Source: Ohtaekwangia koreensis (lineage in GTDB: Bacteria > Bacteroidota > Bacteroidia > Cytophagales > Cyclobacteriaceae). Taken from it: a stretch of DNA of 64,000 bases. The stretch is from positions 2,627,331 to 2,691,330 of the forward strand of contig NZ_FUZU01000001.1 in NCBI RefSeq assembly GCF_900167975.1. Direction: 5' to 3'. The notes under the pieces were generated by a model that saw only the letters and a program-made list of their open reading frames with translations, searched no databases and was not told the DNA's origin. Each line of letters starts with the position of its first letter. Position 1 is the first letter of the stretch. Shown here one piece after another: positions 1,001-49,475 of the stretch. The translations under genes were made by a program, and so were the position numbers.

Positions 1001-1074
1001 GGTCCGGTAGTTCAGCTGGTTAGAATGCCTGCCTGTCACGCAGGAGGTCGCGGGTTCGAGTCCCGTCCGGACCG
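1001..1074 (+). tRNA. tRNA-Asp (GTC anticodon)
   Basis: The acceptor stem GGTCCGG (1001-1007) pairs with CCGGACC (1067-1073), with discriminator G at 1074. The anticodon arm is CCTGC / CTGTCAC / GCAGG with anticodon GTC, and the T arm is CGGG-TTCGAGT-CCCG. CCA is not encoded. The last 17 bases (1058-1074) reappear with two substitutions at 49434-49450. Confidence 0.97.
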
Positions 1075-1075
1075 C

Positions 1076-1117
1076 AAAGACCGCTTAAACGGAATGTTTA
1101 AGCGGTCTTTTTGTTTT
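1076..1117 (+). terminator. Intrinsic terminator of tRNA-Asp
   Basis: A 15-base arm (AAAGACCGCTTAAAC) at 1076-1090 and its exact complement at 1096-1110 flank a five-base loop and run into a T-rich tail. The right arm and tail, but not the left arm and loop, are kept in the second copy near 49451. Confidence 0.9.
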
Positions 1118-1139
1118 ATCATGCCTGTTCAAGCAGCCT

Positions 1140-1655
1140 GAGGTCAATTCCCCTGTTAGTGAATTTCCTGTATCACATCAATAACAAAGCAGAAGAGGAC
1201 TTATGGTATGCACGGATATTCTCAATTCATCTAGGCTGGTAAAAAGCAGGGAGCATTTAGCGGTAAACGATAAAGAACCGAAATATTCCTTGAAGCGAGA
1301 AGTTGATGAATCACAATGCAACGCCGATAAAATAAAGAGAAGGACACTGGAGGCGCGAGATCTTAATATATATCCGTGAACTAAAAAGTTAACTCTTAAA
1401 TATATACCTGGACTTGTCCGCGAAAGGCGAATATACTTCGCCCGAAGCCATCAGAAATGTCTATACTGGAAGTATAGTACAGCAACACACTATACTAGAA
1501 CTCCTCAAGCTGCACAACGAAGACTTAAAAAAAGAATCAGTATAGATGTAGCAAGTAGCACCTGGACTAAATTCAATACCCTTGAGAAGAAGCTGTCGGT
1601 ATATATATAAGCAGCTTAATAAAATAGATATTTACCCTGTATCCTACTCTCTGAT
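1140..1655 (+). pseudogene. Decayed tyrosine recombinase (integrase), copy A
   Basis: No long frame survives, but conceptual translation across frameshifts gives consecutive blocks in family order: YSLKREVDES (arm-type DNA-binding domain), then EARDLN, SPEAIRNVYTGS and LELLKLHNEDLKKRIG, then FNTLEKKLSVYI (SAM-like core-binding domain). These match the N-terminal half of Bacteroidota phage-type integrases. The catalytic domain (Arg-His-Arg-Tyr) is absent. The position directly behind tRNA-Asp fits an integrase that used this tRNA as its attachment site. A shorter, more deleted copy lies at 49500-49890. The assignment is inferred from block order and was not confirmed by database search. Confidence 0.7.
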
Positions 1656-1665
1656 CAGACGATTG

Positions 1666-2613
1666 TTAATTATTGAATAGCACTAGCTTCCTGTCCCTGT
1701 TTCCTGCTTGTCTGTGCATCAATAACTTTCCATTTTTTGTCCTTTTCAAAAGATTAGACATGTTACCTTCAAACTTTCCTCCTTTGGTTGAATCGCCCCA
1801 CCCGCCTTTATACTGACCAACTACAAAAACATAATCCCCAAGATCATATATTCTATTATAGTAGTGCTTTACAATATAGGACATGTTTGGTGTATAGGTT
1901 TTGAGCATTTTCGGCCTGATATTCTCCATTCCCACCCGAATCGAATCAAAATTTGACAGAAGGATTGCATCCTCTGTAAATCCGTCAGCTCTCGCCTTTC
2001 CGTCACTATTCGCTACGGCTTTTAACACGACTGCGTCAAACTCTTTAACTTCAGCAATCAATTTCTTATCCATATTATTGATTGCCGTGAAGTTAGTTTC
2101 CTCAACCTGAACATCCGCATACGGCACAACGTCAGGCTCGATATATGTATCAGCTCCAAACGTTTCTGATATAATACTCAATTTTCCATCGTTGTCCTTT
2201 TTCCATAAGACCATATAATTTCCTTTGTATTCACCTTGTGGATTTTTAATGGATGAGTAGTGGAAACTAAAAGCGCCTAATTCAAGCAAATGATTAGAAT
2301 ATGTCTCCACTACAGATATTTTTTTCTTGTATATCTTAACATCTCCTGCCGTAAACCAGTCCTTAAAAAATTTATTTAACGCTTTAATTTCAAAAATAGC
2401 AGGCTTATACTCAGGAAAAAAAGTAAACTGACTGGCGTATAGGTTGGTCAAAGCATCAACATCTTCTGTTAAGTATAATTGCTCTATTCTACTGTTTATC
2501 GCTTCCAGTTCCATTCGAGAATCATCGAAATTCTTAGTGATATTTAGGCTCTTTAAGTCAATATTTAAAGCACCTGTTAACGACATAATTAATATTACTC
2601 CGGTCATTTTCAT
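1666..2613 (-). CDS. Protein with two NTF2/SnoaL-like domains, probably exported
   Basis: Starting at the ATG at 2613 gives 315 residues with a short hydrophobic N-terminus (MKMTGVILIMSLTGALN) that resembles a signal peptide. An in-frame start at 2694 would add 27 residues before that segment and is less likely. The protein repeats one unit twice: a helix with a DALTNLYA- or DAVVLKAVA-like phrase, then a strand-rich part ending in WKKDNDGKLSIISE or LKRTKNGKLLMHR. This is the layout of NTF2-fold (DUF4440/SnoaL) domains, which are small-molecule-binding or unknown-function modules. No catalytic residues can be assigned. It lies beside the recombinase relic. Confidence 0.7.
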   Translation of the reverse strand: MKMTGVILIMSLTGALNIDLKSLNITKNFDDSRMELEAINSRIEQLYLTEDVDALTNLYASQFTFFPEYKPAIFEIKALNKFFKDWFTAGDVKIYKKKISVVETYSNHLLELGAFSFHYSSIKNPQGEYKGNYMVLWKKDNDGKLSIISETFGADTYIEPDVVPYADVQVEETNFTAINNMDKKLIAEVKEFDAVVLKAVANSDGKARADGFTEDAILLSNFDSIRVGMENIRPKMLKTYTPNMSYIVKHYYNRIYDLGDYVFVVGQYKGGWGDSTKGGKFEGNMSNLLKRTKNGKLLMHRQAGNRDRKLVLFNN

Positions 2614-2694
2614 ATATATACCAGTTTCAAAAATCAGTTTCAGGGTGTGCGAATAAAATTGAGTTGTCCACTTGCGCTTACTCAAAAGTACCAA

Positions 2695-3267
2695 CCCGTT
2701 GATAAGGAAGAAATTTGATTGACTAATAGAGGTCAGGGGTATATCAAATACCTGTTTTTATTGACGAAGGGAAAGTGTTTCCCGGTGCTACCGGCTATGG
2801 CACATGTACATGTGAAATTATAATTCTTGAAATCCATTATACCCGAGGAGGCTGTTTTGGGGATGCCGTGTTGAGCGAAAGGCGATGAAAGGACTAAATA
2901 TAGTATATATTGATCCTTAAACTTAAATTTGCGCTGTGGCACGATTTACTAATGAATATTAGCCAGTGAAAGTGTGCCAGAAGTACACCTTGCGCTATTC
3001 TGATTGTTTTCCAGTATAAGATACATTAAGTGCGCTTGCATTGTGGGCCATTAGCGAACAGATTCTAAAAGAACAGAACCAGTTTTCTGCAGCCTTAGTA
3101 TATATAATTAGAAAAACTCGTAACACTTTTTGATTTCTATTTTAGGACAGTGCAGCAGGACTCAACCACATCTCAAATGTCAATGCATCACAGTTTAACG
3201 AAGAACCACTTGAGACATTCAAAGGAGAAGTGGTATAACTGGCTTGTTGTGTCAGGTTGATTTTCTC
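2695..3267. other. Intergenic region with short unassigned coding-like remnants
   Basis: No intact gene is visible. Two stretches keep open + strand frames that end in natural-looking stops: 2754-2888, containing KVFPGATGYG and vaguely reminiscent of the start of pectate-lyase-like mature proteins, and 3146-3238, containing LNHISNVNASQF. Neither has an upstream start in frame. They may be further gene debris; the pectate-lyase resemblance is weak. Confidence 0.3.
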
Positions 3268-3611
3268 TCACTCTACGGTATATACAAAGCTGTCGCCGCG
3301 ATAGTAGCCATAGTTGAATTCTATTGGATTTTACTTTCATCGTAAACCAGGCGTTTGCGAAACAACACAGGCTCATCGGCAGCAATGTTCAATTTCTTGT
3401 AAATATGCTGAGGCGCTTTTATAGCGGTTAACTCCTCATATGAAAGGGAAGCCCTGACTTTATATTTCTCTTCGAGGATTTCATAGAGCGGTTTACTAAA
3501 ATCTTCGTTCCCCGTCATGCCGATGGAGGGATTGAAATACGAGACGAAATAAACAAACGGAAAGTTTTCTTTACCTCGCAACCTTTCCAGGCATAACACG
3601 GTGAATGGCAA
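3268..3611 (-). pseudogene. GntR-family regulator fragment (UTRA effector domain)
   Basis: The minus strand codes for the effector-binding half of a GntR/HutC regulator: a strand VLCLERLRGKENFPFVYFVS, a PLYEILEEKYKV helix, and FRKRLVYDESKI. One frameshift near 3322 separates this from the true C-terminus EFNYGYYRGDSFVYTVE, which ends at TGA 3268-3270. The winged-helix DNA-binding domain is missing; homology stops at about 3611, exactly where homology to the ROK kinase begins on the other strand. This points to a deletion or rearrangement breakpoint. UTRA regulators usually sense sugar phosphates. Confidence 0.75.
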
Positions 3612-4205
3612 TTTGGAAACGGAAAAGGTGCAAATGATTTGGTTCTCATTACACTCGGAACAGGCGTAGGTTCTGCTGTGATGATGGACGGCCGTGTTTT
3701 ATCAGGAAGAAATTTTACGGCAGGAAATCTCGGGGGTCACATGACGATCAACCTGCATGGTAAAGTTTGCAACTGCGGTAATATAGGATGTGTTGAGACG
3801 GAAGGCTCCACATGGGCGTTGGCTGATGCTGTTAAGAGCGCCCCCGAATTTTCGCGCAGCACATTGTCAAAAGAATCTGATATACATTTTAAAAACCTGT
3901 TTGGGCACGCAGCGCAGGGAGATATACTGGCTACACAAGTCCGTGATAACTGCCTCAACGCATGGTCGCTGGGAATCATTAACCTCATTCATGCTTTCGA
4001 TCCGGAGCGGGTTGTAATCGGAGGAGGTATCATGGAGAGTCAGCATATTTTACTACCCTATATTCAACGCAAGATCAATACGCATGCGTGGGTAAAAAAT
4101 AATCCTCCCCAATTACTGGCCGCAGCGCATCTGCAGACAGCCGCGCTGTTGGGAATGTATCATGTATTAACAGAAGGCAAGAGAGCCCCGATAACGATGT
4201 TATGA
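3612..4205 (+). pseudogene. ROK family sugar kinase, N-terminally truncated
   Basis: About 197 codons match the C-terminal two thirds of ROK glucokinase/N-acetylhexosamine kinases. Seen here are the GKGANDLVLITLGTGVGSA phosphate loop, the AGNLGGHM substrate segment, the zinc knuckle CNCGNIGC, and a C-terminal VIGGGIMES motif. The N-terminal DxGGT ATP-binding lobe, about 110 residues, is absent, and the first homologous residues are at about 3612 with no credible start codon. It overlaps the following gene by four bases (ATGA), so the original pair was probably translationally coupled. It is unlikely to be active. Confidence 0.8.
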
Positions 4206-4663
4206 AATCAAATTTTGATAAATATCCTTTTATTCAGGTTAGCGAAAGTAATGATGATTGTCTGCAGGTACATCCTACCACCGAGTATATAAAAGATAAG
4301 TTCGGCATGGAATATACCCAGGATGAAAGCTACTATATGATGGACGTGAAAAATGATGCATATGTATACCTGGGGCTAAGAGACGATGTAGTTCCTGAAG
4401 AGATGATCGAAGAACTGAGAAGATCGCAGGAGGCAGGAACGACCTTCGATGCGGAGAAGCACGTTCAGAAGTGGCCGGTGAAAAAACACGACCACGTCCT
4501 GATACCAGCGGGGACTGTACATTGTTCGGGTAGGGATAGCGTTGTGCTGGAGATCAGTGCTACTCCTTACATCTTTACATTCAAACTCTTTGATTGGGGC
4601 CGGCTGGGCCTTGATGGGAAACCGCGCCCCATCAATATCAATAGCACACCTGATTTTTTTTAG
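4202..4663 (+). pseudogene. Class I mannose-6-phosphate isomerase fragment
   Basis: 153 codons closely resemble an internal section of the long Bacteroidota class I phosphomannose isomerase, which interconverts fructose-6-phosphate and mannose-6-phosphate. Diagnostic pieces are LQVHPTTEYIKDKFG, the zinc-site-like HDHVLIPAGTVHCSG and FKLFDWGRLGLDGKPRPIN. Full-length homologues are several hundred residues long, so both ends are missing. The reading frame stops in a T-rich run (TTTTTTTTAG), consistent with a frameshift. Together with the ROK and GntR fragments it looks like a deleted hexose-utilisation locus. Confidence 0.75.
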
Positions 4664-4990
4664 GAAGTTTATCACAGAGTTGAATAGGTAGTATATATAT
4701 GAGGCTTGAAGTATGGGCTCATATCAAGTCGAGGAGGCCAACAAAGAAGCAAAGGCATGGTAATTCTATAAAGATCACTACGATTGTCATTAATGTCTTG
4801 CTTAATAGAAGGTATATATTGGGTCCAATAATGGATCTTAGAGGATATATCAAGTGGAAAGACTAGTGCAGCGATTACGTCGAAGATATAGATTCAAATC
4901 CTGTTACTCGTTTGTGAAATGACATCCTGGAGTGGTATACTTAAAAGACGTGATTAAATACACGCAAGTAAAACTGCTGTAAGTATATAC
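4664..4990. other. Intergenic region, nothing recognised
   Basis: About 330 bases with several stops in all frames and frequent TATATA words. No RNA gene, repeat or operator could be supported. It probably contains decayed coding sequence, but no family is recognisable. Confidence 0.4.
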
Positions 4991-7900
4991 TTACGCGCAA
5001 GGAATTCTGACAGTAATCGTTGTCATTACATTGTACTCGCTTTTAATTTCCATGTTGCCTTCGAGTATTTCCAAAGCTTTCTTTACCATGAATAATCCCA
5101 GTCCATTTCCAATTGACTTTTCTGAGCCACGATAAAACATGTTCGATATCCGATCCATTACAGATGAAGGAATACCCGTGCCATTGTCGATCACATTTAT
5201 AATAAGTTGCCCTTGCTCCATGCTCAACACGCAGGTAGCATAGGGATGTTTGTCGTCTCTAAAGACAATACTGTTTTCCATGAGATTAACGATGATGCAT
5301 TTAAGCAAGGTTGCATCTGATGAAAAGACCTGATTGATTCTATTTTCAAATTCGATTTTTACGATGTTATCAGTATTGAGTTCTTTAATAGTGGTGTCGA
5401 TGTTTTGAATCAGCTCATCCACATGGATGAGCTCCAGCGTACGCTGAGCCCGAAACAGAGAGCTGGTTTCGTCCAATCTTTTGAGAAGTCTTAACATGCG
5501 TGTTGAAGTCTTCTCAATGTTTGCAAAGTATACAGTTAACTCCTCAACGCTGTGCGGCATTTTACCCAGGTGAGCCAGTCCGAGTATGGTGGCAATAGGA
5601 CCTCGCAGGTCATGAGAGGAGCGATATAGAAATGTCTCAAGGCCTTTATCCGTTTCGGTTAGCTTATTAATCGTGCGGGTTAATTCGGTAGTTCTGTTTT
5701 CAACCAGTTTCTCAAGGTTTAAATTAACACGGTGTAGTTCATCATTTGTAGAGCTGACCTCTTCGTAGGCTTGTTCCAGTTTTCTGTTTTTGTCTTTGAT
5801 TTCTATCTTTTGTGTCTCCACTAAATTGGTGCGCGCTTTAACCAGGCGTTCAAGCTTTATCTTTTGTTTGAATAGTAATTTTGTTCTCAGGTGTATAATG
5901 AGTACGGTGAGTATAGTCAGAAATATAGCGGCTCCGTATTTTGTTCCGGATCGTTCATACCACTTGGGGATCACTATAATTTTGATGCTTGCAGCATTTT
6001 CATTCCAGTGCCCACTTCTATTGGAAGCACTTACTTTCAGCGTATAGCTGCCTGGTGGTAAGTTGGTATAGGTGGCCGTCCGGCTTGCGTTCGCATCGTT
6101 CCATGCTTTATCGAACCCTTCGAGGTAATATCTATACTTAGTCTTTTTTGGGAAATTGAATTCAAGACAAGCAAACTCAAGGGAAAAGACCTTTTGGTCT
6201 GCCTGCAGGGTTATTGATTCTGTCTGGGAAATGCTTTGTGTAAGAAGGCCTGATTTATCGTTAATTTTAACGGGTATACTAAAAAGCGTAAGTTGTGTAA
6301 AAACAACTTTGGCTTTGGTGGTGTCATCGGCTATATTTTCCGGACGAAAAACGTTTAACCCATTGGTGCCTCCCAGGTAATAAGTGCCATCCGAACTTTT
6401 CAATCGGGCGCCTTCATTAAATTGCGTGCCTTGCGAACCATCCGCTATCGTATAGTCATAAATTAGTGAGGTTGACGGATCAAATTTGTGTACTCCGTCA
6501 ACAGAAGTAAACCACACGTTATGCGAATCATCTTCGAGTATATTTGTAATACGTTTCTCTTTTAGAGGAGCGATTCTTTCAAAACTAAATTTTTCAGGAT
6601 CGAATAAAATCAATCCTTTATTGGCGGTACCTACCCAGAGTTTTCCTTGAAAATTTATAGTCAGATCGGATATCTCATTTGTTGGCATGCTCGCAGAATC
6701 TGCCGGTATATTTAAAAAGGATTTGAATGTTTTTGTTTCCGGTTCGTAGCGGTGAAGGCCATCTAATCGTGACCCGATCCAAATATTTCCTCCTGAGTCT
6801 TCTGCCAGGGAAAAAATGGAACCTGGTATAGTAAGAGGTTTAAATACTTTTTTATAGGGAAAGAATTCATCTAGTGCTGCGAGCTGGCCTGCATAAATTG
6901 TATGGTTGCTAGCTTCTAAAAGTGACCAAACGTGGTTTGTGCTTATGCTTGCGTTATTACCAGGTATATGTATATACCGTGAGAAGCTTCCTGTTTTAGT
7001 ATCCAGGTAATTAAGCCCACCTCCAAACGTGCCTGCGTATAGGTTGTTCTTTTTATCCACGGCCAGTGATTTTACAACGTTGGAGCTTAAGCTGTTTTTA
7101 TTCGTTGACGAATGCCGGTAGGAGGTAAATAGTTTTGTTTGAGGATCGAATCTATATAGCCCGGCTCCATCGGTTCCAATCCATACTTTTTGATGTTGAT
7201 CTTCAGCAATTGCCAAGATCGAATTCTTTTCCATACGCTCCATATCGAGGTCGAAGTATCGATAGTGTTCAAAGCGTCTGGTGCCTGCATATACAATTTG
7301 TAAACCACCGCCATAGAGACCAAACCAATACGAATTATCATCGTTCACAAATATGTTTCCTATATTTCCATTGTGGAGGCGCCTGCTTTGGTTGCCCAGA
7401 ATCTGTCTGAAATTTCCGTCATCATCTTGTTTATATATACCTGCGCCATCGGTGCCAACCAGAAGTTTTCCATCTTTGTCGATAGCAAGTGAACCAATAA
7501 TGTCACTGCCAAAAAATGGCTTGCCCGGCTCGGAAGTGAAGTATTTAAATGTTTTATCATTTTCGTCATTCAATCGAAGCACTCCCATACCATTGGAACC
7601 AAAATATAGGGCACCTGTAGCGTCTTGTACCATACTGATGACCATATCGTTGGGTGAATTGCCATGGGTATCTTCATAATATATAGTACGTTCCACGATG
7701 CCTGCTGAATTGAGAATGCAAATACCTCTGCGGGTAGCGGCCCAGATTTTGCCATGTCTATCTTCCAATAGTGCATTAACAGCATCCAGGCCTGTGCTGT
7801 CGTTTCTGTAATCGTATTTTTTGATAGCAAGGGTTTCAATATTAATTTTATAGATAATCCCACGAGACGCAACCCAAAGTTGGTGATGTCTGTCTTCTAA

Positions 7901-12432: not shown

Positions 12433-12434
12433 CC

Positions 12435-13034: not shown

Positions 13035-13163
13035 CTTTAACCGGAATGCGGGACTAAAAAAATACACACAATGTGCTGCTATAAAAAATGATAACAGTGT
13101 TGTAGCCTATATTTACCGACATTTAAATTCAGGATATTTTGTAACGATAGATATATAAATCGA

Positions 13164-16851: not shown

Positions 16852-17412
16852 TTAAAGATCCTCCAGATTCCCCATGCGCTTGGCTTTAAGCTTTTTAAAG
16901 AAGGAAGGCGTAAGTCCGGTTATCTTCTTGAATTGATTTGATAAATGAGCTGTACTGCTGTAATGAAGCTTGTAAGATATTTCGGTGAGGTTTAGCTCAT
17001 CATAGAGCAATAGTTCCTTTACCCGCTCAATCTTGTGAAGGATGATGAAATGTTGTATGGTAATACCCTTCACTTCCGAAAATAAATTGGACAGGTAGGT
17101 ATAGTCATAATGTAATTTTTCGCTGATATAGTTAGAGTAGTTTACATTGGGCAGTTCATCCGAATAATGTATCATTTCGATGATCAAAGTTTTAACGCGG
17201 TCAATGAGAATGCTCTTTTTATCGTCGAGTAATTCGAGTCCGGAGTAACGTAGGTTTTCGTTCAATGTGCTGCGTTGTTCGGGAGTGGGGGATTCGGTTG
17301 TCTCCACTACGCCTAAATCCAGGGCCGTATAGTGTATTCCCAGTTTTTCCAATGCTTCTTTCACAACCAATTTACATCGAAGGCTGACCATATATTTGAT
17401 GTAAAGTTTCAT
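16852..17412 (-). CDS. AraC-type helix-turn-helix regulator (paralogue 1)
   Basis: 186 residues. The C-terminal half is an AraC DNA-binding domain: NYISEKLHYDYTYLSNLFSE for the first helix-turn-helix and LTEISYKLHYSSTAHLSNQF for the second, ending GLTPSFFKKLK. The N-terminal 80 residues (MKLYIKYMVSLRCK) form a short conserved domain instead of a cupin sensor. It is highly similar along its whole length to the gene at 23649-24209, which has the opposite orientation. It follows the histidine kinase at 17501-18442 on the same strand with an 88-base gap, so the two may be co-transcribed. Confidence 0.88.
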   Translation of the reverse strand: MKLYIKYMVSLRCKLVVKEALEKLGIHYTALDLGVVETTESPTPEQRSTLNENLRYSGLELLDDKKSILIDRVKTLIIEMIHYSDELPNVNYSNYISEKLHYDYTYLSNLFSEVKGITIQHFIILHKIERVKELLLYDELNLTEISYKLHYSSTAHLSNQFKKITGLTPSFFKKLKAKRMGNLEDL

Positions 17413-23648: not shown

Positions 23649-24209
23649 ATGAAGTTATATATCAAGTACATGGTCAGCCTCCGATGCAAGTTGTTGGTTA
23701 AGGAGGAACTTACGAAGCTCGGTATCAACCCGGTCTTCGTGGATCTTGGTATGGTTGAAGTTCCCGGGCAGATAAGTCAGCAAGACCATGATACGCTACG
23801 CGATAATCTTTTAAGATCAGGCCTTGAGCTGCTCGATGACAAGAAGAGTATCCTCATTGAGAGAATTAAAAACGTAATCACCGAGATGATCCATTATTCG
23901 GATGAGATTCCAACACAGAACTATTCAGACTATCTAAGTGAAAAGCTCGACTATGACTATACATATCTCTCTAATATTTTTTCGGAGGTGAAAGGTATAA
24001 CCATACAGCACTTTATCATCATCAATAAAATTGAACGTGCCAAGGAGCTACTGCTCTACGATGAACTTAACCTGACAGAAATCTCTTATAAACTTCACTA
24101 CAGCAGTGTGGCACATCTCTCCAACCAGTTTAAAAAGATCACAGGACTTACTCCTTCATTTTTCAAAAAATTAAAAAAGGCAAGAAACCAGAACCTTGAA
24201 AACATCTGA
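23649..24209 (+). CDS. AraC-type helix-turn-helix regulator (paralogue 2)
   Basis: 186 residues, the same length as and closely similar to the protein at 16852-17412. Identical phrases include SGLELLDDKKSILI, FSEVKGITIQHFII and GLTPSFFKKLK. Differences concentrate in the N-terminal domain at about residues 25-50. The two helix-turn-helix units are complete. The two genes lie about 6.2 kb apart in inverted orientation and flank the antiporter/methyltransferase block. Nearby targets such as the CsbD-like genes are plausible but not shown. Confidence 0.88.
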   Translation: MKLYIKYMVSLRCKLLVKEELTKLGINPVFVDLGMVEVPGQISQQDHDTLRDNLLRSGLELLDDKKSILIERIKNVITEMIHYSDEIPTQNYSDYLSEKLDYDYTYLSNIFSEVKGITIQHFIIINKIERAKELLLYDELNLTEISYKLHYSSVAHLSNQFKKITGLTPSFFKKLKKARNQNLENI

Positions 24210-33879: not shown

Positions 33880-35091
33880 ATGTATCGAGCCATTCGCTTT
33901 CTAGTCATTATCTCCTTTTGTCTTGGTTGTTATTCATCTCTGCAGGCGCAGGAATTTGAGCCTAATTATGTTGAGACAAAAGTCCCGGAGTATGTGCTGC
34001 CTGATGTTTTGAAATCTGCGACAGGTAAACTCGTTGGTAATCGCAAGGAGTGGGAGCGATCCAGGCGAAATGAAATCCTGACGCTACTGGAAGATAATAT
34101 CTATGGTCAAATGCCAACGGTATATGACAGCATCCGGTATGCGATCGCAAGCGAGAACAAAATGAGTATGCAGGGACGGGCGCATTTGAAAGAAATCCTG
34201 ATCGAAGTTTTCAATCACGGAAAGTCGGTGAAAATAAACCTTGTTCTGTTTGTTCCAAACAATGCTCGAAAGCCGGTGCCTGCTTTTGTTTTAATCAACA
34301 ATCGAAGTAAAGATAACATGGACCCGGCGCGGGATATAAAAAGTAATTTCTGGCCTGCAGAAGTAGTGATAGATGCTGGCTATGCCATCGCAGCATTCCA
34401 TGTAGATGATCTTGCTCCGGACCATAAAGATCTTTTTATCAATGGCGTGCTAGAGTTGTATCCAGAGCAACTGAAGGCTGATAATGGAATGAGAGCTATA
34501 GGAGCGTGGGCCTGGGGAGCCAGCCGTGTCATGGACTACCTTGAGAAGGACTCGTTGATCGAGAAAGATAAAGTTGTGGTAGTGGGTCATTCGCGCGGAG
34601 GTAAAGCCTCGCTATGGGCGGCAGCGCAAGACGAGCGATTTGCTATTTGCGTTACAAATTGTTCCGGAAATACCGGGGCAGCACTGTCACGGAGGAAATT
34701 TGGAGAAAGGATCGCTGTGATTAACACCGCTTTTCCACATTGGTTTAATAACAACTATAAAGCATTCAATAACAAGGAAGACTTACTGCCGGTTGATCAG
34801 CACATGCTTATAGCATTGATCGCCCCACGTCCCGTGTATGCAACTAGTGCGTCTGAGGATCTGTGGGCTGATCCAAAAGGAACATTTCTTTGTCTAAAAA
34901 ATGCAGAGCCGGTTTTTTCATTATATGGGCTAAAGTCTTTACTTCCTGAAGAGCCACCGCCTATAGATAAGCCTATCATTCAATCACCGATCGCCTATCA
35001 CAACCGAGCAGGTAAGCACGACCTTACGTTATATGATTGGAAGAGCTTCATAAAATTTGCTGACTATCATTTTAAGCCTGGGTATAAATAG
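33880..35091 (+). CDS. CE15-like carbohydrate esterase (glucuronoyl esterase type), exported
   Basis: 403 residues with signal peptide 1-24 (ending LQAQ). The serine-hydrolase core shows GAWAWGASRVMDYLE, the nucleophile Ser238 in VVGHSRGGKASLWAAAQDER, then NCSGNTGAALSRRKFGE, FPHWF, the LPVDQHMLIALIAPRPVY block and a SEDLWADPKG acid region. The catalytic His is probably the one in [15 protein letters not shown] near the end. This matches bacterial CE15-like enzymes, which cleave glucuronate esters between lignin and xylan; here the nucleophile motif is GHSRGG rather than GCSRxG. A fragment of a paralogue's last 39 codons lies at 49974-50090. Confidence 0.85.
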   Translation: MYRAIRFLVIISFCLGCYSSLQAQEFEPNYVETKVPEYVLPDVLKSATGKLVGNRKEWERSRRNEILTLLEDNIYGQMPTVYDSIRYAIASENKMSMQGRAHLKEILIEVFNHGKSVKINLVLFVPNNARKPVPAFVLINNRSKDNMDPARDIKSNFWPAEVVIDAGYAIAAFHVDDLAPDHKDLFINGVLELYPEQLKADNGMRAIGAWAWGASRVMDYLEKDSLIEKDKVVVVGHSRGGKASLWAAAQDERFAICVTNCSGNTGAALSRRKFGERIAVINTAFPHWFNNNYKAFNNKEDLLPVDQHMLIALIAPRPVYATSASEDLWADPKGTFLCLKNAEPVFSLYGLKSLLPEEPPPIDKPIIQSPIAYHNRAGKHDLTLYDWKSFIKFADYHFKPGYK

Positions 35092-35265
35092 TTTGCATGT
35101 AATATTTACTTTCTGTTGTGATATCATCTCACAGATATAGGTATGCTCAGACACATGAATGATGAAGATACTTGTTCTCTAAATATAGCTTTAGATCGGC
35201 AGCGCTCTATGCAAGCAAAGTATGTAAATTAGAACCCTTGTACTTCTTTATTTTTTTTTCTAATA

Positions 35266-41070: not shown

Positions 41071-41313
41071 TCATGTATACTTACCAGTTATGATGGCTTC
41101 ACTTTTGCAAATAATATAGTTCGCTGGTGTTTGTCTTTGATCAAACGAGGAAATATAGCTAACGGAAAAGTGTAATATTTTCGTTGGATTGGAAAGTATT
41201 TTCCGGGCGAAAGATTCCGTAGTGCCTTGATATCTGTCCGAAGCTTTGCCCGATTCTTGCGTGACTTTGTACTGTAGCCAAATATCAACATAAGATATCG
41301 AAAGGAGTTTCAT
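41071..41313 (-). CDS. Possible small hypothetical protein
   Basis: 80 residues from MKLLSISYVDIWLQYKV; an earlier in-frame ATG at 41334 adds seven. No signal peptide or recognised family. It could be a decayed fragment; support is only the open frame in otherwise empty DNA. Confidence 0.3.
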   Translation of the reverse strand: MKLLSISYVDIWLQYKVTQESGKASDRYQGTTESFARKILSNPTKILHFSVSYISSFDQRQTPANYIICKSEAIITGKYT

Positions 41314-41472
41314 GCCTGTTGAATAATACATCAATCGTCATCCCGTGCTCAGTCGCGGTATACACCTTTCTGGAATAAAATCCACAGATAACCAACTAAA
41401 TCATCCGCTATATCGGGCACTATTTTTTTTGTCTACACCGGGATTTATAACATCAACTTAAATATACATCTT

Positions 41473-41886: not shown

Positions 41887-41908
41887 CCAGGAGAGGTTCA
41901 TTGATTAT

Positions 41909-41945
41909 AAAAGCAAAGGTTGGCAATCGCCGACCTTTTGCTTTT
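41909..41945 (+). terminator. Terminator after the DUF2541-like gene
   Basis: AAAAGCAAAGGT (41909-41920) pairs with ACCTTTTGCTTTT (41933-41945), one extra base in the right arm, with a T-rich end. It begins 22 bases after the stop. Confidence 0.8.
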
Positions 41946-42001
41946 ATACTATATATCGGATTTAAACGTCCAGTGGCACGAAGCTAGCAAAGAAGAGCAA
42001 G

Positions 42002-42330
42002 TTATTTCACCTGAATAACAAAGCCGCCATTTCCTTTCTGGGTGAGGCTTGCTGCACCGGTTCATTCTCAATAAACTCCTTCTGATGAAAGGATCGGATA
42101 TCAGCGCCTTCTGCTATCAGCGTTCCTTTCGTTTGCATGTGAAAAGGAGCTTTAGTGTTAATGGCTTATCCGTTGCTTCACCGTGATACCTATACACCCT
42201 TTACTTTCCGTACCATCATCATGTTTTCTTTGCGCCGTGCGTAATAGCATGCGTCATTTTCCCACAACAGCCCACCCTGTCCATTGTCGTCAATGAAGAC
42301 GGTGGGATCAATGCACGCCCAGTAGGCGCA
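42002..42330 (-). pseudogene. Relic of a family 43 glycoside hydrolase
   Basis: Minus-strand translation begins AYWACIDPTVFIDDNGQGGLL near 42329, the GH43 propeller signature around a catalytic Asp. It continues ENDACYYARRKENMMMVRKV, hits a stop, and after further frameshifts ends SLTQKGNGGFVIQVK at TAA 42002-42004. Most of the enzyme, including upstream blades, is missing. GH43 enzymes act on arabinans and xylans, so this would have worked with the CE15-like esterase. It lies directly against the SnoaL gene. Confidence 0.7.
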
Positions 42331-42336
42331 TTACAC

Positions 42337-42714
42337 CTACTTTAAGTTTGTCATGAAAGTTAAGGTATCGAAATACAAAGTCAGGGATTGAAGCTTTCCA
42401 TTTTTAACAGTCCAGTTCTCGGAGACGTTGCCATTTATTCTTTGTCCATTCGGAAACTGAAAATCGTAATTCCCAATAACACTGGCCTTGTCTCCGTCGA
42501 TGATCATTTGTTTTACCCGCATCGCTTGAAATCGTTGGGAAAAGCGTTTTATGATTTCAACATATGCTTGTTTGCCTACCACGGGTTGCGTGTTAGTCAT
42601 GTCACCACCTACGTACTGGAAGTCATCGGCGATGGTGTCTTCCCAATTTGCTTTTTCCGCAAAACCCTTGTAATAGTTTTCAAGAAGTTGCTTTGTGAGT
42701 GCTTGATTTTCCAT
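42337..42714 (-). CDS. SnoaL/NTF2-like protein
   Basis: 125 residues from MENQALTKQLLENYYKGFAEK; a longer frame from 42849 would run through the promoter region and into the divergent gene. The NTF2 cone-fold pattern is clear: NYYKGFAEKANWEDTIADDF, then VGKQAYVEIIKRF, ending with SENWTVKNGKLQSLTLYFD. Such proteins are small isomerase-like or ligand-binding proteins. It is divergent from an HxlR-type regulator which probably represses it. Confidence 0.8.
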   Translation of the reverse strand: MENQALTKQLLENYYKGFAEKANWEDTIADDFQYVGGDMTNTQPVVGKQAYVEIIKRFSQRFQAMRVKQMIIDGDKASVIGNYDFQFPNGQRINGNVSENWTVKNGKLQSLTLYFDTLTFMTNLK

Positions 42715-42727
42715 AGTAACGTATTTT

Positions 42728-42785
42728 AGTTGTTGCAAAATGCAAGTACAAATATAGGAAGTTGTTGCAATTTGCAATAACTTTG
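42728..42785. promoter_or_regulatory. Divergent promoters with two HxlR operator-like repeats
   Basis: AGTTGTTGCAAAATGCAA (42728-42745) and AGTTGTTGCAATTTGCAA (42760-42777) start exactly 32 bases apart, about three helical turns. The second extends into a near-perfect 21-base palindrome. A minus-strand -7 element TATATTTG (complement of 42749-42756) serves the SnoaL gene, and TAACTTTG at 42778-42785 serves the regulator, whose ATG follows at 42791, so its message may be almost leaderless. Binding would cover both promoters. Confidence 0.6.
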
Positions 42786-42790
42786 TAAGC

Positions 42791-43198
42791 ATGGATAAAA
42801 AAAGATCTGATTGCCCAATCAGTTGTTCACTGGATATACTTGGTGACAAATGGTCGCTGTTAATTATCCGCGATGTTATGTTAAGAGGTAAAATGTCTTA
42901 CAGTGAATTTCTGAATTCGGAAGAAAGAATAGCCACAAACATTCTGGTTAGCAGGCTTACCATTCTGGAAGGCGAGAAGATCCTGGTGAAAGACGTTTCA
43001 CCTGAAAATAAGTCTAAATATATCTATAGCCTTACACAAAAAGGGGCTGATCTACTGCCGATAATAATCGAGTTGATGGACTGGGGCGCAAAGTATAATA
43101 AGAATTGTCCCAGGAAGGAACTGGGGCAAAGGATAAAGAAGGATAAAGCTGCTGTCGTCCGAGAATTGAGCGAGGTCTTAAAGCATAAAGTGAAATAG
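42791..43198 (+). CDS. HxlR family transcriptional regulator
   Basis: 135 residues. The family start is typical: a Cys (CPISCSLDILGDKWSLLIIRD), then YSEFLNSEERIATNILVSRL as the recognition helix-turn-helix, and a wing ENKSKYIYSLTQKG. The conserved first Cys (residue 8 and a second at 12) is used by some members to sense electrophiles. It is divergent from the SnoaL gene and likely controls itself and that gene through the repeats between them. Confidence 0.9.
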   Translation: MDKKRSDCPISCSLDILGDKWSLLIIRDVMLRGKMSYSEFLNSEERIATNILVSRLTILEGEKILVKDVSPENKSKYIYSLTQKGADLLPIIIELMDWGAKYNKNCPRKELGQRIKKDKAAVVRELSEVLKHKVK

Positions 43199-43426
43199 GA
43201 TTTAAACAATTGAAAATTGGGGCCTGTATTCTATCGCGTTAGGCGTGTTTCTGATTTAAAACTTTTGTGAAACGAACTTATGTATCAGAGTTAAACAATC
43301 GACTTTGAAACTATAAAAGCAAAATGTGCTTCATGAAGTGGCAATGGCGGGAAAAAAAATTAAGCACTTGGCAGGCTGAGCGGTATATGCCGAAAATATA
43401 TACTTTACTGTAAGACAGGAAAGGCG

Positions 43427-44875
43427 TTATTGCGCCAGCGGCCTTTTGCCCGCCGACCAGTATAGTACAGACTTTTGCTTTTCATACTCGGCCATTATTT
43501 TGATGAGCTTGGACTGCGCATTGAAAAGTTTCTCCTGCTGCACGTTGATCTTAAAGAGATCGCTCTCGCCATTTTGAAGATTCAGGAGCTCGGCATTCAT
43601 CAGGCGGTTATAGTTGTCCACCATCGCGCGTTGCTGCCCTAGGACTACTCCGTTGTTGACAAGCTGGTTATAGGCTGCCTGTATATCATTGATGATCTGC
43701 CTGCGCGTAAGATCACGATCGTAGGTGGTGTTGCTGATCTTTAGCCTGGTCTGGGCAATCTTGGCCCGCTCTTTACGAAGGAAGAGTGGTATAGAAAAGT
43801 CAACGCCCAGTTTATAGTTATCATCCCAGGAAAATGAACTGGCTATACCCTCGGGATTAAACGGCTGGTTGAGCATATAGTATGATACATTCAGGCGTGG
43901 CTTCATATACTCTGCTGCCAGGCGCCTGTCAAGCTCCAGCTGCTGGAGTTTGATATTGAGCTTGCGCAGCTCGGGGTGATTGACTTTTGCTTCGCTCGTA
44001 AGCTCTTCCAGAATCGCCCCGGATAATACCACGGACTCCGCAGGCACAACGGGAGCATGCTCCAGGGAAAGGTCTACCGGGTTCATTGTACTGTCCCATA
44101 AGTAGGTTGACACTTTTATAGTACTGTTCTTTAAGGCAAGCAGCGCCTCCTGCATGTTTACCGCCCGCTCCAGGAAGGTAATACTGGCCTGCACGGTGTC
44201 CATGCCCGAGAGCTCACCACCTTCAAAATTCATTTTTACTCTTCTGAATATTTCTTGGGCAACCGCCGTTGTACGCGCCGCCAACCGATAGTTATAGTAA
44301 CTGTAATACCATTGCCAGTAATCCTTGGCAGCCTCTAGCAGCAACTTGTTGATGAGCTTCACCTGCTCAGCTTCCATCATGGCCTCGAAAAGCTCCGCCT
44401 GCCGGAGTGCAGTTCTTCGCTCATCGGTAAACAAACCTTGTCCCAGTGGTAAAGATATACCGGCGTAGAGTTGCTGGTAGTTATAGTCTCCGGATATATA
44501 GTGCTCGGGATTCAGGCGCTCTCCCGTGTTGCGTTCCATGCCGATGGTAGGGGTGAGGGGACTTGCCGTGGGAAATTTTACGCCCCCGTTAAACAAACGA
44601 TAATACTCGGTGCCGTCATAGTGCTTAAGCAGGAATTCACTTTCAATCTTGGGATCAAAACTGCCACGCGCCAGGCGTATTTCCTGTTTGGCAACCTGGG
44701 ACAGTAAATCCGTTTGCTTGACAACGGGATGATACCGCGTGATGAGCTGGTAAAAATTTTCAAGCGTAACAGGCCTCACCGTATCGGGCAGCACAAATAT
44801 AGAGTCGTTCTGCTGCTGCGCCCACAGCCCCGTATAGTATATACTAAACAAGATGATCAGCAATATATTCTTCAT
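43427..44875 (-). CDS. TolC-family outer-membrane efflux protein
   Basis: 482 residues with a signal peptide (1-19, ending LWAQ). Two long helical repeats (about 40-270 and 270-470) with coiled-coil heptads such as EMMEAEQVKLINKLLLEAAKDYW, typical of the TolC periplasmic tunnel, and short beta segments between them. It is the last gene of the operon tetR-abc-hlyD-tolC, 23 bases after the HlyD gene, and supplies the outer-membrane exit duct. Confidence 0.9.
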   Translation of the reverse strand: MKNILLIILFSIYYTGLWAQQQNDSIFVLPDTVRPVTLENFYQLITRYHPVVKQTDLLSQVAKQEIRLARGSFDPKIESEFLLKHYDGTEYYRLFNGGVKFPTASPLTPTIGMERNTGERLNPEHYISGDYNYQQLYAGISLPLGQGLFTDERRTALRQAELFEAMMEAEQVKLINKLLLEAAKDYWQWYYSYYNYRLAARTTAVAQEIFRRVKMNFEGGELSGMDTVQASITFLERAVNMQEALLALKNSTIKVSTYLWDSTMNPVDLSLEHAPVVPAESVVLSGAILEELTSEAKVNHPELRKLNIKLQQLELDRRLAAEYMKPRLNVSYYMLNQPFNPEGIASSFSWDDNYKLGVDFSIPLFLRKERAKIAQTRLKISNTTYDRDLTRRQIINDIQAAYNQLVNNGVVLGQQRAMVDNYNRLMNAELLNLQNGESDLFKINVQQEKLFNAQSKLIKIMAEYEKQKSVLYWSAGKRPLAQ

Positions 44876-44898
44876 AGCGTGTAGTCCTGCCGTTGTCC

Positions 44899-46197
44899 TT
44901 AACTCTTCTTTTCCTGCGCGTTTTTGGTCTCCTCCTTGGAAGGCAAAGCATCCTGCAGCGGAGCCTTATACAGGCTGGGAGGGAAGCCGTTGAGCTGGCG
45001 CCAGATCTCATACCACACCGGTACATTTTCCAGCATCACCCACCCGCGTGTTCCCGAGCCTACACGCAACTGCTGCGGCCATACCTCATCGGTCTTATCC
45101 GGTATAACCAGCATCCGGAATTCTCCCGGCTGAGAGCTTACATAGTCAATCACTTCTACGGTTCCGCCAAAGCTTCCCACCGATACGCTGGGCCATCCCG
45201 AAAACTGCAACGCAGGCCATCCGTCAAATTCAATACGCACCTTGCGCCCCTTGCTGATCAGGGGAACGTCCATAGCTTTTACGTACATCTCTACAGCCAG
45301 GTCCGTCACCTCCGGCATCACGGTGCAGACTGCATCGCCTTCTTTTATAGTCTCACCTATACCGGCCCGCATGGCGCGCACCACATAGCCGCTCTGGGGA
45401 GCCGTGATCTGGTACTGGCCGCTTCGGATCTGCGTGTTGGTATATTCATTGGTGAGTTTGGAGATCTCACCTTGCGCCTCAAATATATCGCCTTGCGTAG
45501 CACTCAGGTCGGACTCGGATTTACTGATCTTCTCCATATACTCGGCGCGCAGGCGGGCAATTTCCAGGGTGGCATTTCTATAGTCAGCTTCACTGCCCTG
45601 GTATTTATACTCTATCTCCTGGAACTTGGTCAGAGGTATATTTCCGGCTTCGAATAATTTTTTGTTGCGCTGATACTGGTTCTCTGCATTCTGAAATTTT
45701 ATACGCTCTGCCTGGAGCTTGGCAGTAGCCTGCTCAATCTTGCGTTGCATGCCGGTCTTCAATGCCTCGATCTGCCGGGAAAGTGCGTGCGCTTTCTCGG
45801 TCTTGGATGTAAGGCTGCTCTTCTTGGCAGTGAGTTGTTCCTGCAAACGCTCCAGTAGCTGGGGATCGAAATATTTTTCTTTTACCTCCCGTATCGTAAC
45901 AATCGTATCACCGGCCTTGACAGCCTGTCCTTCGCGTACATGCCATTTTTGAATTTGCCCGGCGATGACGGCCTGCACGGTCTGCGGCCGGTTGGCGGGA
46001 TTAAGCGCTGTAATTTTTCCTATACCGCGGATGTTTTGTTGCCAGGGCAGAAAGAGGAAGACTATAAATATAGCGCCCATCGCCATCAGCCATTTGGCCA
46101 TCAGTATACCGGCTGCGGGCCGCTTGAGGGCACGCAAGGAGTATAGATTTTCCTCCTTCACCATTTTGTCGATCCTCTGTGTTGATAGTCGCAGCAT
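44899..46197 (-). CDS. HlyD-family membrane-fusion (adaptor) protein
   Basis: 432 residues. A short cytoplasmic N-terminus, one membrane helix (about 35-53, MAMGAIFIVFLFLPW), a split lipoyl half (QKWHVREGQAVKAGDTIVTI), a long coiled-coil hairpin (about 115-260) and a second lipoyl half (APQSGYVVRAMRAGIGETIKEGDAVC), then beta-barrel. It bridges the inner-membrane ABC protein and TolC. A five-base gap separates it from the ABC gene, indicating tight co-expression. Confidence 0.9.
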   Translation of the reverse strand: MLRLSTQRIDKMVKEENLYSLRALKRPAAGILMAKWLMAMGAIFIVFLFLPWQQNIRGIGKITALNPANRPQTVQAVIAGQIQKWHVREGQAVKAGDTIVTIREVKEKYFDPQLLERLQEQLTAKKSSLTSKTEKAHALSRQIEALKTGMQRKIEQATAKLQAERIKFQNAENQYQRNKKLFEAGNIPLTKFQEIEYKYQGSEADYRNATLEIARLRAEYMEKISKSESDLSATQGDIFEAQGEISKLTNEYTNTQIRSGQYQITAPQSGYVVRAMRAGIGETIKEGDAVCTVMPEVTDLAVEMYVKAMDVPLISKGRKVRIEFDGWPALQFSGWPSVSVGSFGGTVEVIDYVSSQPGEFRMLVIPDKTDEVWPQQLRVGSGTRGWVMLENVPVWYEIWRQLNGFPPSLYKAPLQDALPSKEETKNAQEKKS

Positions 46198-46202
46198 ACT
46201 TT

Positions 46203-48377
46203 CTAATCGATATAGTTATTAATAGTACCCTTCTTTAAAAGTTCCTCAAAGTGACCTTCTTCGGAAATTTGTCCGTTGCTAAGAAGTATAACCCGGTCGC
46301 AGGCAGCCATGATGAGCGGATCGTTGGAGACAGCAAGCAATGTATAGCGGTTGTCGGCATGGATCACCGACTGCAGCATATCGAGTTTCTCCTGTCGCTT
46401 GAGGCCCGCGAAGAAATCATTAAGGATGATCAGCGCCGGTTTTTTAGCCAGGCACCGGGCCAGTATAAGTTTATGAATAAACGAACTTGAAAATCCTTTA
46501 CCGCCACTCACAATATGGGTATTCAACCCTTCGGGTAAACGGTTCACTTCATCTTCCAGCTTTACCTTTCGTATCGCCTGGATGGCATCTTCAACGCTGC
46601 GTGTAGCACTGCCCAGGGTAATGTTCTCCAGTATCGTACCATCGAATATATCTTCCGGTGAAATGTTTTTAGCCATGCTATCGCGCAGGTGGCGAATGTC
46701 CAGATCACGCAGTGAATAGTTGTTGATGGTGATGATGCCTTCATAGTCGGAATGTATACCGGCAATCAGGTTGGTGAGTGTGGTCTTTCCAGCGTTGCCC
46801 GGACCTGCAATGCAAACCCGCTCACCGGAATTGATACGAAGATCAATTCCATTGAGTACATGCTCTGTTTTCTGCGGGTACCTATATTTGAGTTGCTTCA
46901 ATTCAATGGAGTAACCCGTAACAGTATGTCTTTGAAAATCCAGCCCGCCTACTTTCTCCAGCGGCAAGTCCGTGAGCTGTGCGATCTTGTCCACGGCCGT
47001 TAGCAGATCATAGATAACATCCATATAGGTGATCGTTTTCTCAACGGCATTCAGCATGAGAATGATGATCACCTCGGAGGCCACAAATTGTCCTAATGTG
47101 ATTTCGCGGTTCACTACCAGTATAGTTCCCAGGATAAGCAAACTCGCGGTGACGGCCGTTTTAAAAACGACGATAAAAGAGAACTGTGTGATGAGCACCT
47201 GGAAGTGAGCCTTGCGATACTTCAGGTAATTGTTGACCATGTTGTCGGTTCGCCGGATGGGCAGGTCCGTATTGCCTGCCAGCTTAAATGAATTGATGGA
47301 ACGGGCGAGCTCCTCGAGCCATTGCACTACTTTGTATTTATACTTTGACTCATTGATGGATGAGGTGAGCCCGTTGGCCCCGGTGAGCCAGAAAATCAGG
47401 AACAGGACAAAGACCAGTATTACACTGAAGAACACAAAGAAGGGGTGGTATAGCGAGAGCAGGATGAGCCCGAAAAAGATCTGTATCGCTGCAGAGGAAA
47501 GATCGATCAGCATCTTGGGTAATCCTTTCTGTAGTGTAATCACATCGAAGAAACGATTCACAAGCTCCGGAGCATAGTTGTTGAGAATCGACTCCATACG
47601 AATGCGTGGAATACGGAATGCAAACTCGATGGCGGCCTTCGTAAATACACGCCGCTGCAAATGCTCAACCAAACCGATCTGTATGATCTGCAGTATCCCT
47701 GTGAAGAGTACACCCAGGATGACGGCAGCAATCAATAGATATACCGAGCTGAAGAACACGCCTCCGGAAATAAGCTCTACGGTGTTCTGGATACCAACCG
47801 GTAAGATCAGGCCGATGAGCCCCACGACGATGGAATAAAATAGTATATATAGTATATCTTTTCTTTCCGTGGACAGAAGCCTGAAAAACCTTCTGACAGG
47901 ACTCATCGGCTCAGGTACCACATCCCCCTCGTAGGCGTAGTCGCTCACCAGGTTTTTGTAAGGATATAGTATATACGTCACCACTCCGTTTGCATGGCTA
48001 TGGAGGGAGGTCAGCTGCGAGATGTCTGTTCCAAAGGAAAGCTGTGTATTTTCTTGCAGCGCGGTGATCGCTATTTTTTTTCTTTCACATGAAATCAGCA
48101 GCGGCACAAGCTCCTGCGGCGTTTCATGGAATACGAGCACAAGTATATTGTCGTCCTTTACCAGGTCTGTCAGGGATGCAGCGGGTATATTTTGCTCCAG
48201 GAAAAGCATACGCATTTTACTGCCCGCCTCGATGAGATCATTCTTGAACTCACCAAATTCATTTTTTGCATAGTGGCGGTTGTTGATCTCTACAAAGCGC
48301 AGGTCCGCCGGGTTGAATTCGTGCTTGAGTAAAAGTGCAGCCTCTCGCAGTATCCGTATGATGGAGTGATTGGTCAT
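46203..48377 (-). CDS. Type I secretion-like ABC transporter with degenerate ATPase motifs
   Basis: 724 residues: an N-terminal soluble domain of about 140 residues (C39-like position but no catalytic Cys), six membrane helices (about 175-450), then a nucleotide-binding domain. Walker A is intact (GPGNAGKTTL) and the signature region reads VSGGKG. Other key positions are altered: no Gln in the Q-loop (KNISPEDIF), Walker B/catalytic site LIILND instead of LLLDE, AGLK instead of SALD, and no H-loop His (AVSNDP). ATP binding seems kept and hydrolysis doubtful. It overlaps the TetR gene by four bases. The cargo is unknown. Confidence 0.88.
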   Translation of the reverse strand: MTNHSIIRILREAALLLKHEFNPADLRFVEINNRHYAKNEFGEFKNDLIEAGSKMRMLFLEQNIPAASLTDLVKDDNILVLVFHETPQELVPLLISCERKKIAITALQENTQLSFGTDISQLTSLHSHANGVVTYILYPYKNLVSDYAYEGDVVPEPMSPVRRFFRLLSTERKDILYILFYSIVVGLIGLILPVGIQNTVELISGGVFFSSVYLLIAAVILGVLFTGILQIIQIGLVEHLQRRVFTKAAIEFAFRIPRIRMESILNNYAPELVNRFFDVITLQKGLPKMLIDLSSAAIQIFFGLILLSLYHPFFVFFSVILVFVLFLIFWLTGANGLTSSINESKYKYKVVQWLEELARSINSFKLAGNTDLPIRRTDNMVNNYLKYRKAHFQVLITQFSFIVVFKTAVTASLLILGTILVVNREITLGQFVASEVIIILMLNAVEKTITYMDVIYDLLTAVDKIAQLTDLPLEKVGGLDFQRHTVTGYSIELKQLKYRYPQKTEHVLNGIDLRINSGERVCIAGPGNAGKTTLTNLIAGIHSDYEGIITINNYSLRDLDIRHLRDSMAKNISPEDIFDGTILENITLGSATRSVEDAIQAIRKVKLEDEVNRLPEGLNTHIVSGGKGFSSSFIHKLILARCLAKKPALIILNDFFAGLKRQEKLDMLQSVIHADNRYTLLAVSNDPLIMAACDRVILLSNGQISEEGHFEELLKKGTINNYID

Positions 48378-49060
48378 TTGATCTTTGCGTTAATTGTATT
48401 GAGCACCATGGTTTCCAGAAACTCGGCGAGCCGCTCATGCTTATGCCGCGAGTCTGTTTTTATATCCGTAAGAGAGGGCAGGTGCTGCGCATAGTATAGC
48501 TGGTGATTTGCACTTAGCATGACGGTGCTTACTAGCGAATGCGGAAATCCATAGTTCGGACTGATCTCCTTGAGTATACCGGCTATTTTTTTGCACAACG
48601 ATTTATAGGGAAGGAACAGCCCTTCTTTATTATCAGTATCCACCTGCCGGGTCAGGTACGTTTTTTCGAATTCAGTGTTGACGATGCGCTGCAGTCTCTG
48701 CTCATCGACAAAGGGAATCTCCGGGTCTATCTTCTTTTCTTCGGCCAGCATCCGGATACAGGTTCGCAGTCGCTCCACGGGGCTTGCTATATTCTGGATG
48801 CGATAATCTATTTTATACTCCAGCCAAGTCCAATACCAGTCGATTAAGTATAAAATCAGGCGATGCTTGTTTTCGAAATACCGGTATATAGATGCTTCCG
48901 TGGAGCCGATCTCGGCACCCAGCTTTTTGAATGTAAAATCCTCAGCACCGGTTTTGTCAATCATTTTAATACTGGATTGAATGATCTTCTGGCCCAGCGT
49001 ACTGGACTGCGGGTCCCGCAGGTATAAGTTCGGATTCAGTTTAAAAGAGACGATAGTCAT
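48374..49060 (-). CDS. TetR family transcriptional regulator
   Basis: 228 residues. The N-terminal helix-turn-helix is clear (about 25-70): KIIQSSIKMIDKTGAEDFTF, KLGAEIGSTEASIYRYFENK. The C-terminal ligand/dimer domain is helical and unlike known drug-binding members. It is the first gene of the export operon and overlaps the ABC gene (ATGA), so it probably controls the whole operon by autorepression at the palindrome at 49071-49089. Confidence 0.9.
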   Translation of the reverse strand: MTIVSFKLNPNLYLRDPQSSTLGQKIIQSSIKMIDKTGAEDFTFKKLGAEIGSTEASIYRYFENKHRLILYLIDWYWTWLEYKIDYRIQNIASPVERLRTCIRMLAEEKKIDPEIPFVDEQRLQRIVNTEFEKTYLTRQVDTDNKEGLFLPYKSLCKKIAGILKEISPNYGFPHSLVSTVMLSANHQLYYAQHLPSLTDIKTDSRHKHERLAEFLETMVLNTINAKIK

Positions 49061-49070
49061 GTGCTTAAAA

Positions 49071-49089
49071 ATGATAGTATTGCTATCAT
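49071..49089. promoter_or_regulatory. TetR operator-like palindrome
   Basis: ATGATAG (49071-49077), a five-base spacer and CTATCAT (49083-49089) form a perfect inverted repeat 11 bases upstream of the TetR start codon, where the transcription start should lie. Size and place are typical of TetR autoregulation. Confidence 0.7.
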
Positions 49090-49433
49090 AAACGGTAGTT
49101 ATGCAATATTGTTTAAATTTTTTTCTGTTTTTTATGCGGGGGTCGGGGGAGGTCCGGTGACCGGCTCACTTTCGAAGTAAAAAAAGGAGGAAGTTTTCGC
49201 TGCCCATGATGTCGATCGTAATTTGGTCTGTAAAGACAAATTATGTATGTCGTTTTGAAATGGTTATACGGATATATACATGTTATTTTTGACAAGTTGT
49301 TTGCTTAGAAATTTTGTCAGTGTCAATGGTTAGTCTTTTAAGACTCAAAATACTGTCTGGTGCGTACGGATGAGATAGACTTCTGGCATATATAGTCCTA
49401 CTAGATGGAAATCTTTCCTGTTATTTAGTAGTG
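49090..49433. other. Intergenic region before the tRNA-Asp-like repeat
   Basis: About 340 bases with no gene. It contains the likely promoter of the export operon (minus strand, AT-rich around 49090-49130) and a short CCGGTGACCGG palindrome near 49155. Confidence 0.4.
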
Positions 49434-49475
49434 GAGTCCTGTCCAGACCGTCTTTTTGTTTTATCATGCCTGTTC
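49434..49475 (+). repeat. Second copy of the tRNA-Asp 3' end and downstream flank
   Basis: 49434-49450 equals the last 17 bases of tRNA-Asp (1058-1074) except for two changes, and continues with TCTTTTTGTTTTATCATGCC exactly as found after the tRNA terminator (from 1106). The left arm and loop of the terminator are missing. The rest of the tRNA is absent. This is what an attachment-site remnant looks like. Confidence 0.75.

Follow-up and report, generated by a model that had tools for sequence, protein, structure and literature searches.

The stretch of DNA analysed here (64,000 nt; hereafter the window) carries a tRNA-Asp (GTC) gene, detected by ARAGORN on the forward strand at positions 1001–1075, which appears to be an integration target, with its last 17 bases (1058–1074) as the att core. 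A second copy of the core, with two of the 17 bases changed, is found on the same strand at 49434–49450. Downstream of the first core lie a terminator hairpin and flank (1076–1125, forward strand), present too on the integrase side of the elements in a related genome (G005, see below), and a frame-broken relic of a tyrosine recombinase retaining the N-terminal part only (1257–1636, forward strand). The second core is followed by the flank and an N-terminal recombinase relic without the terminator hairpin (49451–49879, forward strand). An efflux operon for OEP, HlyD, ABC exporter and TetR proteins, identified by a family scan and searches of congeners, occupies 43427–49060 on the reverse strand. 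Copy 2 belongs to a block of ~29.7 kb (about 49223–78952; 49223–64000 falls in the window), from whose left end it is about 0.2 kb away. Window coordinates are used throughout and run on past both ends, so that −40 to 324 kb covers the adjoining stretches of the same contig.

Two copies of the tRNA-Asp core and recombinase relic

The original prediction held that the end of tRNA-Asp recurs with two changes, and that both copies lead into the same flank and the same decayed tyrosine recombinase in the same orientation. A direct match confirmed the former, and both the alignments and tblastn hits at the two copies confirmed the latter. The next best match to the 17-mer beyond copy 2 has five mismatches (both strands, 1.1–184 kb); as a chance-level control, nine matches of this five-mismatch class are listed in that range alongside the single copy 2. 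With up to four mismatches allowed, a 19-base core was detected in just two places between −40 and 324 kb, namely copies 1 and 2. Since this limit (4/19) is the level of copy 2 itself, more decayed cores would escape the scan.

Aligning the two copies, which had been proposed as a check, gave same-strand identities of 94% for 1105–1152 versus 49450–49497, 81% for 1105–1317 versus 49450–49670, and 83% for 1511–1636 versus 49740–49864. The flank repeat scored 196 bits in BLAST, versus a maximum of 32.8 bits in 100 shuffles that permuted the query in three-base blocks and did not preserve exact dinucleotides. When 1050–1660 was searched against the whole genome carrying the window (7.24 Mb, six contigs), three matches were obtained, one being copy 1 and the other two being parts of copy 2. 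Both copies thus have an att-type arrangement, in which the 3′ end of the tRNA is repeated as a core adjoining an integrase.

The reference for both relics is an intact 414-aa enzyme of G005, which tblastn aligned with copy 1 over aa 32–161 (83% DNA identity) and with copy 2 over aa 5–166. Both the intact enzyme and the broken-frame pieces themselves, searched by tblastn, indicate homology of the two copies to the arm-binding and SAM-like parts of the recombinase. The catalytic domain is absent from both window copies, and no further match to the enzyme was found between −40 and 324 kb at E 1e-3. The decay of the recombinases that had been proposed is therefore evident, both copies being frame-broken and devoid of the catalytic half. 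Copy 2 additionally lacks the 31-nt terminator hairpin and one inner stretch of the gene. A whole-genome search with the intact enzyme lists copy 1, and the Phage_int_SAM_5 profile alone listed neither copy in this genome.

Being only 81–83% alike in DNA, copies 1 and 2 are not a fresh duplication. Copy 1 is 83% identical both to the intact G005 gene and to a stretch of contig C53 of that genome (C53:39885), and copy 2 is 75% identical to C53:39936 and 78–85% to the intact gene. The two may have arrived separately or stem from an old duplication; separate arrival is weakly supported, as their mutual likeness is no lower than that of either to most G005 copies. Beside copy 2, 49970–50098 (forward strand) was also considered as a candidate piece of recombinase and discarded; it is a 3′ end fragment of an esterase-like gene, 87% identical to 34971–35099, the end of the esterase-like gene at 33880–35091 (Pfam GCE_fung).

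The tRNA-Asp locus in congeneric genomes

We compared the window with six draft genomes of the same genus (G001–G006), mostly through chosen stretches; whole genomes were used for the searches with the core/repeat query, the SAM_5 profile, the efflux proteins and the intact enzyme. In the six congeners we identified seven tRNA-Asp loci. Their 19-base core is identical to that of the window in G005, G004, G006 and G001, and has one mismatch in the two loci of G002. The nearest relative, G005, carries the intact 414-aa recombinase on tRNA-Asp (C38:26260–27504); the domains Arm-DNA-bind_5, Phage_int_SAM_5 and Phage_integrase mark it as a tyrosine recombinase of Bacteroidota type. At the tRNA-Asp of G004 (C3), a recombinase copy is broken over three frames (66–81% aa identity), and that of G006 (C43) matches at 54% with one stop inside the match. 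At one locus of G002 (C5) the relic derives from a less closely related enzyme (25–33%); the other (C7) has no recombinase copy within about 32 kb, and its right flank showed no DNA match to the region studied here. Contig ends truncate the loci of G001 (C104) and G003 (C39). A further contig of G005 (C121) starts within tRNA-Asp and carries a frame-broken recombinase copy at 95%, which could represent either another copy or strain variation.

In G005, cores adjoin the intact recombinase or its relics. Contig C53 of this genome has cores at 13049 and 39888 (84% identity of their distal arms across 109 columns) as well as recombinase relics at 48.7 and 57.7 kb. The links from tRNA-Asp (C38) to C53 in G005 and from C43 to C13 in G006 are inferred, and that from C53 to C6 in G005 rests on an overlap of ~124 bases. 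A core with one mismatch and a terminator-like flank was also noticed at 378.4 kb of a 958-kb contig of G005 (C46:378395), far from any tRNA-Asp seen, and cores away from the tRNA therefore also occur in this genome. In G002, a second core (3/19 mismatches to the core in the window) lies 24.3 kb past the tRNA-Asp on C5 and is likely the far end of a decayed 24.3-kb element starting at the tRNA. As had been anticipated, then, a tyrosine recombinase targets tRNA-Asp, judging from the intact enzyme on the tRNA of G005 and from the cores and relics in series on C53. These data support repeated, decayed integrations at tRNA-Asp in the genus.

On C38 of G005, 31 kb further along the contig from the intact recombinase, we found a relaxase gene (PF03432) and a NikA/MobC-type gene; the right att is not reached there. 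The same contig gave a strong match to DruE and a weak one to DruF, resembling Druantia defence. In the window, no relaxase or mobilisation gene was found among the 30 proteins scanned (of 106 listed ORFs of at least 80 aa).

NBU1, NBU2 and Tn6031 are tabulated as integrative and mobilizable elements whose tyrosine integrase uses the 3′ end of a tRNA gene, the targets being tRNA-Leu, tRNA-Ser and tRNA-Pro (PMC5704250). The loci described here resemble these elements in having a recombinase gene beside the tRNA 3′ end and the tRNA end repeated as a core; on C38 of G005, the relaxase and NikA/MobC-type genes 31 kb along the contig may be a further likeness. The window copies differ in being relics with neither the catalytic half nor a demonstrable right att, and in the target, tRNA-Asp. 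The same source describes CIMEs and tandem accretion, in which decayed elements in series share att cores (PMC5704250). The decayed elements with common att cores on C53 of G005 are of this kind, and the tRNA-Asp hot spot of the genus would fit the accretion model as outlined there. In the window, by contrast, 48 kb of mostly chromosomal DNA separate the second core from the first. A CIME is marked by attL and attR that persist when integrase and transfer genes are gone; in the window contig the left cores are kept, and no right core was found to 324 kb at up to 4/19 mismatches.

The 48-kb interval and the block around copy 2

The original prediction regarded the 48 kb between the att-like repeats as trapped cargo. 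Counting matches of at least 140 bits, stretches of G005 carry 38251 of the 48359 bases of the interval (mean identity 90.5%) outside the att series of that genome, ~5.8 kb of this being the efflux operon on a separate contig (C5). In the stretches chosen from the other congeners, 6831 (G001), 5686 (G004), 5437 (G006) and 4518 bases (G002 and G003 each) of the interval were covered. Beyond the right end of the att series, G005 has DNA matching 3.2–43.3 kb in the order of the window, with gaps and inserts: C53 leads from the series into window position 3243 and extends as far as 31.5 kb, and C6 continues to 43.3 kb (matches above 140 bits past window position 700 for G005 and G006, and above 150 bits for G001). 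The inserts are ~19.7 kb of extra DNA at 3599 and a segment Y (79.5–82.9 kb in the window contig) between 35.1 and 37.6 kb; segments X and Y (79.06–82.86 kb) stand apart in G005. The interval is not wholly contiguous in G005, because the efflux operon is on C5 and C6 passes from 43.28 kb to 186.96 kb without it. The order of segments on C6:503–15187 and C5:26253–32736 is unlike that in the window contig, indicating that the zone to the right of tRNA-Asp has been rearranged between close relatives.

Broken genes do occur in the interval, as had been noted. At 3243–4205, a remnant of a regulator gene, presumably of GntR type, adjoins the C-terminal half of a ROK gene (assigned by family scan). 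Comparison with G005 and G001 places the breakpoint at 3599, where both have kept the ~19.7 kb that is gone in the window. As the extra DNA is present in both relatives, these broken genes reflect a deletion in the lineage of the window, which brought the two gene pieces together. Judging by N-termini, the DNA kept by G005 and G001 may be a SusC/SusD-type locus. Elsewhere in the interval, two HTH_18/AraC-type regulator genes form an inverted repeat of 360 nt (16885–17244 and 23817–24176; 74% complementary).

Base composition, which had been proposed as a further test, does not set off an island. The GC content is 42.5% in the 40 kb upstream, 41.5% at 3.2–43.3 kb, 48.7% in the efflux operon, 45.7% at 49.2–79.0 kb, 42.9% at 79–184 kb and 45.2% at 184–323 kb, with no clear separation of blocks inside and outside the interval (41.5–48.7%).

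Genes for OEP, HlyD and the ABC exporter are present in all six congeners, and TetR in four of them among the matches listed (G001, G004, G005 and G006), taking one best match per protein and contig at a coverage of at least 50%. The operon lies ~22 kb to the right of an att core with 2/19 mismatches in G006, shares one contig with 3.26–4.64 kb in G001, and in G002 stands in inverted orientation at a distance of ~313 kb from the orthologous tRNA-Asp locus. We read the 3.26–4.64 kb segment (G001) and the operon (G006 and G001) as probable anchors in the chromosome on the right-hand side of the hot spot. After the operon, G006 continues with 177361–180892 of the window contig, and G001 and G004 have other DNA; neither core nor relic was found there in the stretches read from G001–G006 (13 to 54 kb each; up to 4/19 mismatches for the core).

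Had the interval been cargo, an empty site joining 1–1074 to about 49451 onward had been expected. The right flanks of tRNA-Asp are readable at five of the seven loci, the other two (G001 and G003) being cut by contig ends; none of the five shows such a site or reaches the DNA past 49.9 kb at more than 140 bits. The idea of trapped cargo is not supported, given the 38251 bases present outside the att series of G005 and the efflux genes of all six congeners. On the best reading of these comparisons, 3.2–49.2 kb is likely chromosomal DNA lying right of the hot spot, in part specific to the lineage and shuffled.

An empty state was instead seen at the junction just right of the efflux operon. On C5 of G005, BLAST homology to the window contig stops at 49189 and resumes at 79059, and short motifs narrow the junction to ~49222 and ~78953, separated in G005 by about 55 bp, so that the window contig has ~29.7 kb extra. 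This block, which holds copy 2, has two genes for hybrid two-component sensors (50213–54400 and 57392–61516) and, beyond the end of the window, a SusC/SusD pair (65199–69667). For the block, no right-hand core was detected at up to 4/19 mismatches as far as 324 kb, and its left arm (49223–49433) had no match to the known distal arms or the other stretches compared. Insertion of the block by an integrase is accordingly kept as a candidate only. Three large ORFs of 1166, 1135 and 1136 aa, 80–83% alike in DNA and one of them inverted to the other two, are situated at 74.1–78.8, 127.5–132.1 and 132.4–135.9 kb; they are possible rearrangement sites.

Origin of the two copies

Taking the comparisons together, copies 1 and 2 are probably old, decayed integrase copies from the tRNA-Asp hot spot, and the interval is probably chromosome rather than cargo between att sites. 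The copies are better read as scars of insertion than as ends of an island, as most of the intervening DNA resembles ordinary chromosome. tRNA-Asp would be a recurrent insertion site for elements encoding a tRNA-Asp-specific tyrosine recombinase beside the 3′ end of the tRNA. Each insertion would rebuild the tRNA end and leave core, terminator and integrase directly after it, so that repeated insertions would build a series. In the lineage of the window, two copies would have been reduced to a core, its flank and roughly 160 initial codons, one still on the tRNA and the other at the left end of the separate ~29.7-kb block after the efflux operon. Copy 2 could have come to this place either because an element integrated at a secondary site or because part of an older series was moved.

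The latter is a special case of the same explanation, in which a chromosomal rearrangement, not an integrase, shifted a piece of the old tRNA-Asp series by 48 kb. It may well apply, albeit we lean slightly against it: the differing segment order in G005, the esterase fragment duplicated beside copy 2, and the long inverted repeats of large ORFs at 74–79, 127–132 and 132–136 kb, which offer sites for recombination, are all in its favour, but no single event giving the present order could be reconstructed.

In one form of the former, the tRNA-Asp recombinase or a close variant might have placed a polysaccharide-utilisation locus in a secondary site directly past the efflux operon and made this junction a second hot spot; this fuller reading we regard as rather unlikely. 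Such loci are horizontally exchanged in Bacteroidota, according to PMC13188876. The ~29.7-kb block resembles these loci in its SusC/SusD pair and hybrid two-component sensors, absent at the matching junction of G005; it differs in that no paired att was found for it, and position alone ties it to the integrase relic.

The reading of 1075–49433 as a single old integrative element at tRNA-Asp, or as several in tandem, whose recombinases are dead and whose right-hand att is copy 2, seems unlikely. This reading accounts for the direct repeats and for core and integrase being in the expected order and orientation; a decayed element of such a shape is likely present on C5 of G002, and the integration may have happened in the ancestor of the genus. 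Against it stand the presence of most of the interval outside the att series of G005, the efflux genes in 6/6 congeners, which in G002 are remote from the orthologous tRNA-Asp and inverted, and the lack of core or relic past the operon in the stretches read from G001–G006. An ordinary dispersed repeat unrelated to integration can be rejected as most improbable: G005 does have several relic copies, but the search of the window genome found two only, the cores of G005 adjoin the intact recombinase or its relics, and no wide scatter of copies lacking core or recombinase sequence was seen.

If the interval is mostly ordinary chromosome, as the preferred reading of insertion scars would have it, a pair of att-like repeats can mislead, as 48 kb of such DNA resembles an island when it is viewed without relatives. 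If insertion at a secondary site is genuinely the case, the junction after the efflux operon would be a second hot spot, with different DNA in each species of the genus. The comparison shows that insertions have recurred at tRNA-Asp in this Bacteroidota genus, one member of which retains an intact recombinase, with mobilisation and Druantia-like defence genes further along that contig.
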